This document shows positions 58,436 to 63,200 of a DNA stretch of 64,000 nucleotides, piece by piece (within the stretch, counting starts at the first letter, position 1; the number at the start of each line of letters is the position of its first letter). The position numbers and the translations under genes were made by a program. Under the pieces are notes generated by a model that searched no databases, was not told the origin of the DNA, and saw only the letters and a list, made by a program, of their open reading frames with translations. The DNA comes from Platanthera guangdongensis (taxonomy: Eukaryota; Streptophyta; Magnoliopsida; Asparagales; Orchidaceae). Location: NCBI GenBank assembly GCA_039583875.1, contig CM077162.1, forward strand, positions 110,889,808 through 110,953,807, given 5' to 3'.

Positions 58436-58459
58436 ATGGCACCGAAGCGGTCGTCAAGG
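58436..58459 (+). CDS. Putative gag exon 1 in the Tekay 2 LTR
   Basis: ATG plus seven codons (MAPKRSSR) ends at GTAATG (58460). Splicing to the acceptor at 60229 (polypyrimidine CTTCTCCACCTTTAG, branch-like CTAAT about 27 nt upstream) removes 1770 nt, including the primer site. It continues in frame as LTRSGAGPSE. This gives gag the ATG it otherwise lacks. Confidence 0.65.
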
Positions 58460-60012
58460 GTAATGACTTTTCTTCCTAGCCATGTGAAGGCTTCCTTTTT
58501 GGCATATTTTGTGATTTCCCCCACCAAGAGGTGGCTGGTTTTGGAAATCTTTGGGTGGATGCTTGAAATCCCCTTTGTTAGCATATAGATCCGGAAATGG
58601 AGTACGGAATAGGCATGCTGTGTGAAGCCCATCTGGACAGGTTAGTCTGGATTGGTGATGTTGCATACGAACCGGAGAAGACTCCGTGATAAACGTGTAG
58701 TGTAAGGAGTCTACGGGTTATGCCTGCGAAAAGGAGTAGCAGGAAGTACTGGGGTGGTAGCCCAGGAAAATAGCCATGTGATGGTTTTGGGTCCAACCTG
58801 TGATTGAGGCACGGGAAGTACTGGTGGAACCAGGAAAGGCCCTTTTGGTGATGCTTGATGTCGTAGGGTGTCCACCTGTGAAGCGAGTAACAGGAAGTAC
58901 TGGCATGTGAGCTAGGAAAGACCCCTGACATTTGTGCTTGTGCGGTGTCCACCTGTGGAGAGAGTCACAGGAAGTACTGGTGTGCCCAGGAAAGACCCGC
59001 TATTGCTGTGAGGAAATGGGTATAGAGAAATACCCAGGCTTATGCCAAGAACAGGATTGGTGAGACCGACCCGCGCCTTTGATATAGCCATGAGTACGCT
59101 GTACTCGGAGAAGGCAAGGCGATTTGAGCAACGGGGGGTGGAGGATCCGACCTGCGCTATGTCCGTCCGACGTGAGACCAAAAAGTGCGGTCTGTTGGAG
59201 CGCATAGCAAGAGTCTTCGGCCTGCGCGCCATGACACAACGGGGGGCTAAGGGCCATCCCGGTGTTCGAAGACTAACTCCGGCTGCACGCCATGGAGTAA
59301 ATGCTCAAGAGATTTACCGTTGGGTGATAACCCTGAGACGGTGGTGGGCAAGAGGTTGCCAGAACACCAAGAATGTGCCCTGAGTGCACGGACCGTTGGG
59401 CCGGGCGGCGAACGGTTGTGATGGCTTGTGTGCGTGAAAGCACATTTTGATGATATAGCTTGCCATACTTGTGATCTAATATGCCTGCAGGGAAGATTAC
59501 CGCTGCCCCGAGAGAAGGGGTAGGGTCGTTATAATTTGGTCAGCTGAACGCTGACCGTTGCTTTTGTTTGCCACCGGTGGGTGGATTGTCCCTTTCCAGG
59601 TGCTGGAGAGCCGAGCGGATCGCATAGAGGCTGATGTTCCTGCGGGTGTTGCTGCTGCTGCTGCTAGCCCTCGATGGCTAGATGTGTTCTTTTGTGTGTT
59701 TTCTTTTCTTGTGGCCGGCCTGCGCGCCAATTGTTTAGGCCACTGTGTGAAAGCCCTGTATAGGCCATAAGGCCAACTCTTTTGTACGTGTTGTAAGACA
59801 TTCCTATATGATATAAAATGTGGAGTTTTATGTTTGGACATTCATGAGGAGTTCAAGTTGTAGTCTAGGCTTCCGCTAGAATGCTTTGTGTTAGGTGCGA
59901 TGCGCGACTCTGGTATCATCCTGTACCTTCACCGACTGTTTTGTGATATATCCTGTGGGGCCCCGGCCGGACCTTCTAGAATATATCATATGAACGGATG
60001 GGGTTGTTACAT

Positions 60013-60229
60013 TTTTGGTATCGGTCGTCTTGGTCGTTCTCTCTCGCAGTCGTGGTCGACTTCTTTTGTGGGGTGGCGAGCACGTGTTTGTGCACACCAA
60101 GTCTACGAATGAACTCCTGAATGTCCATGATAGGAATGCATATTTGTGTGTTTGAGGAACCTGTGTGTTCTTCTTTTGTGTTGATTGCTTGGGTACGACC
60201 GCTAATGTGTGTGTCTTCTCCACCTTTAG
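60013..60229 (+). other. Tekay 2 primer site and leader, 3' part of the putative first intron
   Basis: TTTTTGGTATCGG follows the LTR, a partial match to the initiator Met-tRNA complement. The leader ends in a strong AG acceptor. The TAG of that acceptor is an in-frame stop before gag in unspliced RNA. Confidence 0.65.
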
Positions 60230-63200
60230 TTGACACGAAGTGGAGCTGGGCCGTCTGAGTCCCAGCGTTCTGATGAAAGTACGGCACCAGTCGCGGTGCC
60301 TACACCTCCACCGTCTGAGGAACATGTGCGTTTAGTTGCGGAGGCCTTATTTACCATGATCCACGGTCAGCCACTTAGGCAGGAACAAGCGGCTGTGAGG
60401 CCAGAACAGGTGGCGGCAAGGCCTGAACCTGTTGTGGATGTGGCTCCTCGAGCGGCTGAGAAGCAGCTAACGCGGTTTATGAGCTTCCATCCGCCTACGT
60501 TTTCGGGAGCGGGAACCCCGACGCAGGCTGAGGATTGGTTATCGCGCGTCAAGCGAGTGATGACGGCGATAGGAACGGCGGAGCATCAGAAAGTTACCTT
60601 AGCCACCCTCTTGCTTGAAGGAGAAGCGCGTTTATGGTGGGATGAGATGGAGTTGCATCATTTGGAGGGTCGTCCATTAACCCAAGTATCGATGGAAGAA
60701 TTCTCCCGGCTCTTCCTAGCGAAGCACCTTCCTGTGGCTCAACGGATAGCCATGGAAAATGAATTCCAACGGTTGACTCAAGGTGATGGCAGTGTTGACG
60801 CGTACCTGCATGAATTTACTCGCTTGGGGCGGTATGCGGGTTCGATTTTTGCTGATGAGCAGAGGAAGACGAATCGGTTCTATGAAGGACTGAGGGACGA
60901 GCTGAGATTCCTTGTGTCCAGTTCTGTGAACCAAGGTTTCCAAGCATTGGTTGACACTGCAACCGTGTTGGAAAAGGACATGAAAAGGGTGCAAGGGAAG
61001 AGAGCTTTGGCTGTGTCGCAACCGGAGTGGAAGGCGCCCCGATCGGGAAAATCATTTTATAAGAAGAGATGGGGTAAGAAGTCCAAGCCTAGTGGACAAG
61101 CTCCTTCATCAGTTGCAACGGGAGCAACATCAGGGGCAACCTCCAAGCCAGACACTCGTACCTGCTTCAATTGTGGCCGGTTGGGACATGTTGCGCGAGA
61201 TTGTCGGATGCCGCCAAAGAGTGAAAAGAAGGCGGGAGCATCTTATGCGGAAAAAGGAAAGGCAGTGGTGGATTCTTCTGCCTCGCAGGCGCAACCCCGG
61301 GTCTACAATCTTGGCCTGCAAGAGGCCATCAAGCAGAGTGACGTGGTCACAGGTATGAGTTTAGTTTGCTATTGTTTGTATGTTTTACTTAGTACTCCTA
61401 TGTTTGTGGTTTGTGTGTTTGACATGTTTGTCATAGGCTTTGTGATGATTCGGGACACGCTGGCGCGAGCACTGTTTGATACAGGTGCATCGCATTCTTT
61501 TCTGTCTCGTGAGTTTCTTACGCGGCTTGGGATACCGAGTCGTGCAAAGGCAGATAGCGTCAGAGTGGTGTTGCCGAATGGTTGTTGGATGCTTGCGGAT
61601 CAAGCTTGCGATGTTGCGGTTCAGTTAGGAAGTCGGGATTTTCGTTTAACCGCATTTGTTTTGCCAATATCGGAATTCGATGTGATTTTTGGGATGGATT
61701 GGCTTGCGGAGCAGCATGCTATGATTGATTGCCAGTCCAAAGAAATCACGTTGGGCCAAAATACCGAACAGAAGACCAAGTTCGCGGGTATGCGAGGAGT
61801 GGGCGGGACGTTGATGTCTGCACTCCAGGTAGTCAAAGCTGTTCGGAAGGGTGCGGAGTGTTACTTTGCACTAATTCAGGTTGTTGAGCCTAAGGCCACT
61901 TTGTGCGAGGTTCCGATTGTGGCAGACTTTACAGATGTGTTTCCCGCGGATCTCCCTGGGCTACCACCCCAGCGGGAGATTGACTTCACGATCGAGTTTG
62001 TGCCAGGTGCGAAACCTGTGGCCCGCTCGCCATATCGTGTTGCGCCTAAAGAGATGGCTGAGTTGAAGGTTCAACTACAAGAAATGCTAGAGCAAGGTTA
62101 TATCCGCCCAAGTGTGTCACCTTGGAGCGCGCCTGTGCTTTTTGTAAAGAAGAAAGATGGTGGGTTACGGTTGTGTATCGATTACCGTGAATTGAATAAG
62201 CTGACCGAGAAAAATAAGTATCATATACCCCGGATTGATGAATTATTTGATCAGCTGGTGGGATCTACGGTCTATTCGAAGTTGTACCTGAAGTCTGGTT
62301 ATTACCAGTTAAGAATTCGGGAAGGTGACATTCCCAAAACCGCATTTGGAATGCGTTATGGGCACTATGAGTTCACAGTCATGCCCTTTGTATTGTGTAA
62401 TGCGCCCTCGGTGTTTATGGATCTGATGCACCGTATTTTTAGTGAGTACCTGGATCTGTTTGTGATAGTGTTCATTGATGATATCCTGGTATACTCGAAG
62501 TCCAAAGCTGAGCATGAGAGTCACTTGCGGTTGGTGTTGAATACGTTGAGGCAAAATCAGCTATATGCCAAGTTCTCGAAGTGCGAGTTTTGGCTATCGT
62601 CAGTGGCATTTTTGGGCCATATGGTGAGTGGAGCGGGCATTGCAGTGGATCCAGCGAAGATAAAAGACATACTTGAATGGCCAATGTTGTCTTCCGTGGC
62701 CGAGGTCAGGAGTTTCCTTGGACTTGCGGGCTACTATAGAAGATTTGTGGAGAACTTCTCGTGGATCGCTTTGCCGCTAACCACACTGACGCGAAAAGAT
62801 CAGAAGTTCGTTTGGACGCCAGAGTGCGCACGAGCTTTTGAAGAGCTGAAGGTTCGGTTGACCACGGCACCAGTGTTGTCTTCGCCATGTGGAACCGATG
62901 GATTTGTGATTTATAGTGATGCCTCAGGGAGCGGCTTAGGCTGCGTTCTTTTGCAGAACGGAAAGGTGATTGATTATGGCTCACGCCAGCTGAAGGTGCA
63001 CGAGCAAAACTATCCAGTCCATGATTTGGAATTAGCGGCGGTGATTTTTGCACTCAAGCTGTGGTGACACTACCTTTATGGCGTGAAGGTGGAGATCTAT
63101 ACCGATCATAAGAGCCTAAAGTATCTATTGGAGCAGAAAGAGTTGAACATGCGACAACGAAGGTGGTTGGAGTTCCTTGGGGACTACACTTTCGAGATTC

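Follow-up and report, generated by a model that had tools for sequence, protein, structure and literature searches.

A predicted gag start exon in the long terminal repeat, spliced across the primer binding site, in chromovirus-like retrotransposons of the orchid Platanthera guangdongensis

In a 64,000-nucleotide stretch of the Platanthera guangdongensis genome (contig CM077162.1 of assembly GCA_039583875.1, positions 110,889,808 to 110,953,807 of the forward strand; hereafter the window), two families of chromovirus-like Ty3/gypsy retrotransposons carry a gag reading frame that lacks a start codon of its own. Within their long terminal repeats (LTRs), both families hold a 24-nt candidate exon, an ATG followed by seven codons and a GT donor. 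The explanation that we consider very probable invokes two introns: the LTR start exon (exon 1) would be spliced to gag in phase 0 by removal of intron 1, and intron 2 would lie at the gag/protease boundary. An original prediction, made from the letters of the window alone, had proposed an LTR-borne gag start spliced across the primer binding site, and this is still the best explanation, in view of its recurrence in samples drawn without use of the exon and of the constraint on its reading frame. A spliced gag start of this kind is very likely widespread in the genome.

All three sites at which exon and donor had been proposed (24678, 38535 and 58436; Table 1) are present, compared with 0.04 sites expected from shuffled sequence. 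The proposed spacing ATG-xx-CC proved wrong, the actual one being ATG-NNN-CC, and the claim that codons differ only synonymously between the families fails at codon 2, where the copy at 24678 has GTG (valine). Genome-wide, the exon-plus-donor pattern has 42,701 matches and the reversed pattern none (these and all genome-wide pattern counts below are exact matches in the 4.25-Gb source genome). The first 100 places listed contain 50 distinct 24-mers. Codon 2, which the pattern leaves free, is GCN (alanine) in 86 of them, and codon 5, left free between an arginine and a serine, encodes arginine in 99 by way of five different codons. The exon consensus is mostly M-A-P-K-R-x-x-R. We also noticed a subfamily (L080, L090, L096, L097 and L067) that reads M(A/V)(P/L)R(K/N)NA(R/K), with arginine at codon 4 and lysine or asparagine at codon 5. 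Among viral contigs the exon pattern matched once, in a phage-like contig of which 5000 of 8819 bases were read, and we take this match as chance.

Because these 100 places were chosen by the exon pattern itself, we sampled further copies independently of the exon, picking places by motifs in the leader between primer site and acceptor. The first leader motif has 4507 matches; 20 of 100 listed places were taken, mainly for variety at the motif's four free bases, and 14 of them contain the exon with at most three mismatches. In the remaining six, LTR homology begins beyond the exon, in one case (L063) just 3 bases beyond the exon end. The second leader motif has 18,457 matches, from which 20 consecutive listed places were fetched. 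Eighteen contain the exon with at most four mismatches; one stretch ends short of the expected place, and one without the exon is not LTR-like. Altogether the exon is found in 32 of the 40 places, by a search that allowed substitutions only and counted an exon with an insertion or deletion as a miss, and the GT is retained in 31 of these 32.

The exon evolves like coding sequence, and its substitutions follow the reading frame. Among 24 distinct exons, drawn from the 32 sampled ones and two window copies, the mean pairwise difference is 0.30, against 0.51 and 0.50 for two upstream 30-nt stretches and 0.46 for intron positions +9 to +26. The ratio of the proportions of nonsynonymous and synonymous differences (pN/pS) is 0.49 in frame (0.39 for codons 2–5), below both shifted frames (1.43 and 0.80) and below every one of 40 overlapping upstream 21-nt controls (minimum 0.71, median 0.91). 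The exon value is pushed up by the decay of many sampled copies.

At the other end of intron 1, the two TAG acceptors followed by the conserved gag start were confirmed at 32989 and 60227, and in each of the two families exon 1 joins exon 2 in phase 0. The combination of exon, GT donor, branch-point-like site and phase-0 TAG acceptor recurs in several diverged families, with a predicted intron 1 of about 1.5–1.8 kb in undisturbed copies. A script assigned acceptors in 39 of 42 sequences, two of them wrongly (L062 and L078). In the 37 correct ones that we used, CTRAY or CTTAAC occurs upstream of the acceptor in 31, and in 30 of the 37 its distance to the start of exon 2 is 26–28 nt. Rfam gave no match at gathering score within 57500–60400.

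Intron 2 is predicted from a second recurrent signature, ACAG|GTAYG...TAG|GMTTTGT. It is present, intact or decayed, at the gag/protease boundary in 20 of 22 sequences (18 of 20 loci plus both window families) and was not found in the other two, L046 and L059. Its length ranges from 74 to 91 nt and takes all three remainders; when the intron is retained, a stop follows within three codons in 16 of 20 sequences, and the four exceptions are copies of family 2. Protein searches with 4 and 7 matches identified gene models of two orchids, Platanthera zijinensis and P. guangdongensis, as the nearest proteins; a further search gave 101 matches. In six Platanthera models (P0002, P0005–P0008 and P0010) the sequence across the boundary is DVVTG|F, whereas the last residues of P0001 are VVTGTV, the intron-2-retained form. 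The genome itself holds the exact intron-2-less junction at 136 places (reversed control, 0), compared with 11,758 matches with the intron by a comparable pattern. We read six of the eight such copies listed on contig C1. Five retain exon 1 (MAPKRTTR, MAPKRNAR, MAPKRTAR or MTPSKNSR), donor, LTR end, primer site, leader and acceptor, so that intron 1 is present and intron 2 gone; the sixth has a different sequence between leader and gag. Exact losses of this kind are what reverse transcription of RNA spliced at intron 2 alone would leave, and they point to splicing in vivo, although a few ancestrally intronless founders may stand behind the 136 copies.

Intron 1 left no such trace: its exact junction has no match in the genome for families 1 and 2 or for family 3. 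A pattern independent of the state of exon 1 gave two apparent intron-1-less matches, which we rejected as acceptor micro-variants in unspliced copies. The contrast of 0 intron-1-less copies and 11,222 unspliced acceptors with 136 and 11,758 for intron 2 has a Fisher p of about 4e-40, in a comparison whose copies are not independent. No intron-1-less copies are expected under the two-intron model, because RNA spliced at intron 1 would have lost the primer site.

Several observations nevertheless weigh against a spliced start. An intron 1 that is never spliced would equally leave no intron-1-less copies, so that their absence is consistent with the model without proving it. The constraint does not end sharply at the donor by our test, as in-frame pN/pS beyond it is 0.65. 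Plant donors usually have G at +5. In the 32 donors examined this base is C in 25 and T in 7, which makes the intron-1 donor weak by the plant consensus; a weak donor would suit an RNA that must remain partly unspliced. The two-family LTR alignment in the window does not single out the exon, 315 of 2489 windows being at least as conserved, and the case therefore rests on the genome-wide comparison. Finally, none of 8 Platanthera gene models has the exon at its start: P0005–P0007 carry other sequence before the same TRSG start, and P0009 begins with an ATG there.

What else could start Gag? As had been noticed, gag opens with a long stretch devoid of in-frame ATG; the first ATG comes after 58 codons in family 1 and after 42 in family 2. 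Compared between a family-1 copy and a family-3 copy, codons 1–42 have pS 0.71 and pN 0.20 (0.15/0.38 and 0.36/0.34 in the shifted frames), and this constraint implies that translation starts upstream of the first in-frame gag ATG. Initiation at that internal ATG (codon 43 or 59), where gene model P0001 begins, is accordingly hardly credible. Initiation directly after the TAG on unspliced RNA, at a near-cognate GTG or TTG or at an ATG, looks unlikely from the codons found there. It does draw support from an NTG codon at 31 of the 37 correct acceptors (GTG at 28; the TTG at 60230 is seen in the window family-2 copy only) and from the ATG in P0009 and at locus L058. A third family (5 loci), however, has GCA or GCT at this position and a fourth GCG. 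Moreover, ATG is one mutation away from GTG, yet the same genome pattern has 99 scattered matches with ATG against 11,222 with GTG, so that the ATG directly before TRSG, an alternative start that would have spoken against splicing, is too rare for a general start even with L058 and the P. guangdongensis model P0009 added. Such initiation would also leave the coding-like LTR exon unexplained and would have to contend with the ATGs that precede gag in unspliced RNA: in 33 copies, each of which came from the window or was selected with the exon pattern, a further 25–53 lie within the 1376 nt after the exon ATG.

In 30 of these 33 copies, no ATG precedes that of the exon for at least 171 nt. The exon ATG might open an independent short reading frame, an upstream open reading frame or a micropeptide, whose match to the gag acceptor is incidental; the unspliced frame does continue for 16 to more than 83 codons, and the ratio past the donor cited above counts in favor of this reading. 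On its own, that ratio does not tell an exon from a short reading frame. The length and end of the frame vary widely among copies, though, and it shifts between relatives, whereas GT and the first intron bases are retained and the acceptor keeps its phase in all families seen, which renders this reading highly improbable. There is also very little to recommend a real acceptor served by a different upstream exon in the LTR or leader. Gene models P0005–P0007 do place two kinds of different upstream sequence before TRSG, with AGLRAE/AGLRAD common to P0006 and P0007, but the models disagree with one another, and gene prediction can readily overlook an exon of 24 nt. Outside the orchids, the 101-match set is nearly all pineapple; 25 of its proteins open with M and then, after one or two residues, two basic ones, and four of these 25 begin MAPKRRYVR. 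This resemblance to MAPKR is only suggestive, because many of the models look truncated. A polyprotein search of viral contigs matched 313 stretches, none of them a relative.

We thus return to the spliced LTR start and its consequences. Removal of intron 1 would join the eight codons to gag and excise what follows them in the LTR, together with the primer binding site and leader. Gag would then be made only from RNA spliced at intron 1, since in unspliced RNA gag does not begin with an ATG and dozens of ATGs precede it. Reverse transcription would be possible only for RNA that is unspliced at intron 1 and keeps the primer site. With intron 2 kept, translation would mostly end just after Gag; with intron 2 removed, it would yield Gag-Pol. 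From these sequence features we infer that intron 1 is spliced in cells, that its splicing sorts message from genome, and that the ratio of Gag to Gag-Pol is set by intron 2. A separation of mRNA from genomic RNA would fit the finding of 136 intron-2-less copies and no intron-1-less one. On balance we favor, with some reserve, the fuller claim that an element with two switches, in which intron-1 splicing is both the sole route to Gag and the loss of the replication template, so that no RNA could be message and genome together, and in which intron 2 governs how much Gag is made relative to Gag-Pol, is the general state in this genome.

Parts of this arrangement are known elsewhere. In the env mRNA of avian sarcoma-leukosis virus, a few ATG-bearing codons are spliced in frame to a downstream open reading frame, as we propose here, but gag is the source of these codons, which lie downstream of the primer site and are used for env. 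Among the titles and abstracts listed on splicing, introns and gag starts of such elements, from a library with few subscription papers (20 of 131 listed on chromovirus introns and 10 of 18 on intron loss), none reports a gag start exon in an LTR. A 2005 paper states that introns upstream of gag had not been reported in any LTR element (PMC1142308), and a 2025 paper regards plant elements as intronless in general, apart from Ogre and EVADE (PMC12786077). Ogre (Ty3/gypsy, legumes) has a coding-region intron that is spliced from part of its transcripts and controls polyprotein expression (PMC6317226, PMC12786077), in likeness to the splicing predicted here. Its intron parts GAG-PROT from RT-RH-INT, whereas our intron 2 parts gag from protease, with protease, reverse transcriptase (RT) and RNase H (RH) downstream, and a further intron with a coding LTR start exon is predicted here. 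BARE1 (Ty1/copia, barley) keeps separate RNA pools for translation and replication, which we propose here, and uses splicing to express Gag; by contrast, its 104-nt intron at the gag end makes a Gag-only RNA, its gag start lies outside the LTR, and promoter, cap and poly(A) distinguish its two pools (PMC3735527). Diaspora (Ty3/gypsy, soybean) has predicted LTR donors and acceptors around the gag start, but as a prediction alone, of unknown relevance, and with a gag ATG present (PMC1142308). EVADE/EVD (Ty1/copia, Arabidopsis) likewise makes a short gag subgenomic RNA via splicing, although its Gag-only isoforms arise by splicing plus early termination, and the text available describes no LTR start exon (PMC7730604, PMC12786077).

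The anatomy of the window copies is collected in Table 1. Pfam finds gag, zf-CCHC, protease, RT and RNase H in order in family 2, and integrase domains and an SH3 domain in the 3' part of family 1. The Ty3/gypsy gene order gag-PROT-RT-RH-INT is thus present, pieced together from two families rather than from one intact copy. A candidate for the chromodomain sought at the integrase C-terminus (PF00385), at residues 511–557 of the family-1 open reading frame, scores 17.1 bits (E 0.0053), under the cut-off of 25.1. Tekay is the name given with the original prediction. The family-1 primer site, TGGTATCAGACT, has 2 mismatches to the tRNA-iMet motif that we take to be expected of a Tekay/Del chromovirus, and the match of the family-2 window copy is weaker. 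At 2 mismatches 12.95 matches are expected by chance, and the argument is the site's location in the leader. In other copies, TGGTATCAGAC occupies the primer-site position.

Table 1. Features of the two element families in the window
Feature	Position	Strand	Remarks
Family-1 LTR, solo-like	23796..25957	+	own TGATG target-site duplication
Family-1 exon 1	24678..24701	+	MVPKRNSR; donor GTAACG from 24702
Family-1 primer binding site	32771..32782	+	TGGTATCAGACT; 2 mismatches to presumed tRNA-iMet motif
Family-1 branch-point-like CTTAAC	32966..32971	+	26 nt upstream of exon-2 start
Family-1 intron-1 acceptor	32989..32991	+	TAG
Family-1 gag exon	32992..34135	+	VTRSGVGPSE...; interrupted by in-frame TAG at 33673-33675
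Family-1 predicted intron 2	34136..34211	+	76 nt; in-frame TAA; altered donor context ACAA|GT
Family-1 3' LTR	37653..39846	+	followed by TGATG
Family-1 exon 1	38535..38558	+	MAPKRNSR; donor GTAACG from 38559
Family-2 LTR	57652..60011	+	TGTAACA...TGTTACA ends (inferred; no second complete copy in window); apparently common to two tandem family-2 elements
Family-2 exon 1	58436..58459	+	MAPKRSSR; ATG + 7 codons; pattern match in window
Family-2 predicted intron 1	58460..60229	+	1770 nt; GTAATG...TTTAG; holds LTR end, primer site and leader
Family-2 primer binding site	60016..60027	+	TGGTATC...; starts at 5th base after LTR end; >2 mismatches to presumed tRNA-iMet motif
Family-2 branch-point-like CTAAT	60202..60206	+	28 nt upstream of exon-2 start
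Family-2 intron-1 acceptor	60227..60229	+	TAG, also in-frame stop
Family-2 exon 2, gag	60230..61352	+	LTRSGAGPSE...DVVTG; open frame 60230-63067; Pfam Retrotrans_gag, zf-CCHC
Family-2 predicted intron 2	61353..61436	+	84 nt; open and in frame in window copy
Family-2 exon 3	61437..63067	+	protease, RT, RNase H start; stop at 63065-63067

The family-1 copy is rearranged and broken, with a stop in gag and an altered intron-2 donor. Behind both family-1 LTRs stand TGATG and a shared segment of 1.3 kb, about 98% identical between the two places, and this duplication (23791–25957, 25958–32761, 37653–41157) has left the family-1 gag without a 5' LTR of its own. The exon at 24678 is not simply that of this element's 5' LTR, because the LTR that carries it has its own TGATG duplication and the recurrent 1.3 kb. 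The tandem family-2 elements seem to share one LTR (56457–57524, 57652–60011, 63726–64000), and exon matches elsewhere show tandem spacing too. The 5' part of both LTR families (23861–24103, 37718–37960, 57733–57871) contains repeated palindrome-like cacacggcc...gggacacgggcgtgtcc units. Elsewhere in the window, a nested element at 26371–31858 has two identical 381-bp ends (26371–26751 and 31478–31858) and is hence young, and TGGTATCAGAGC stands right after the first end. Two nested pairs of long direct repeats at 844–18534 (844–2418/16961–18534, 96%; 4706–6230/15367–16886, 97%) are likely an element within an element, and a diverged tandem-repeat cluster lies at 53587–54082.

Retroelements pose the long-standing question of how a single RNA can be message and genome at once. 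In these orchid elements the start codon and the primer site flank a predicted splice, an arrangement in which any one transcript could use only one of the two. A spliced start would explain a gag reading frame without a start codon, which gene models of a related orchid handle inconsistently. If the reading with two switches is true, coding start exons already furnished with donors lie scattered through the host genome in more than 40,000 copies, and start exons in such abundance could also feed host transcripts.

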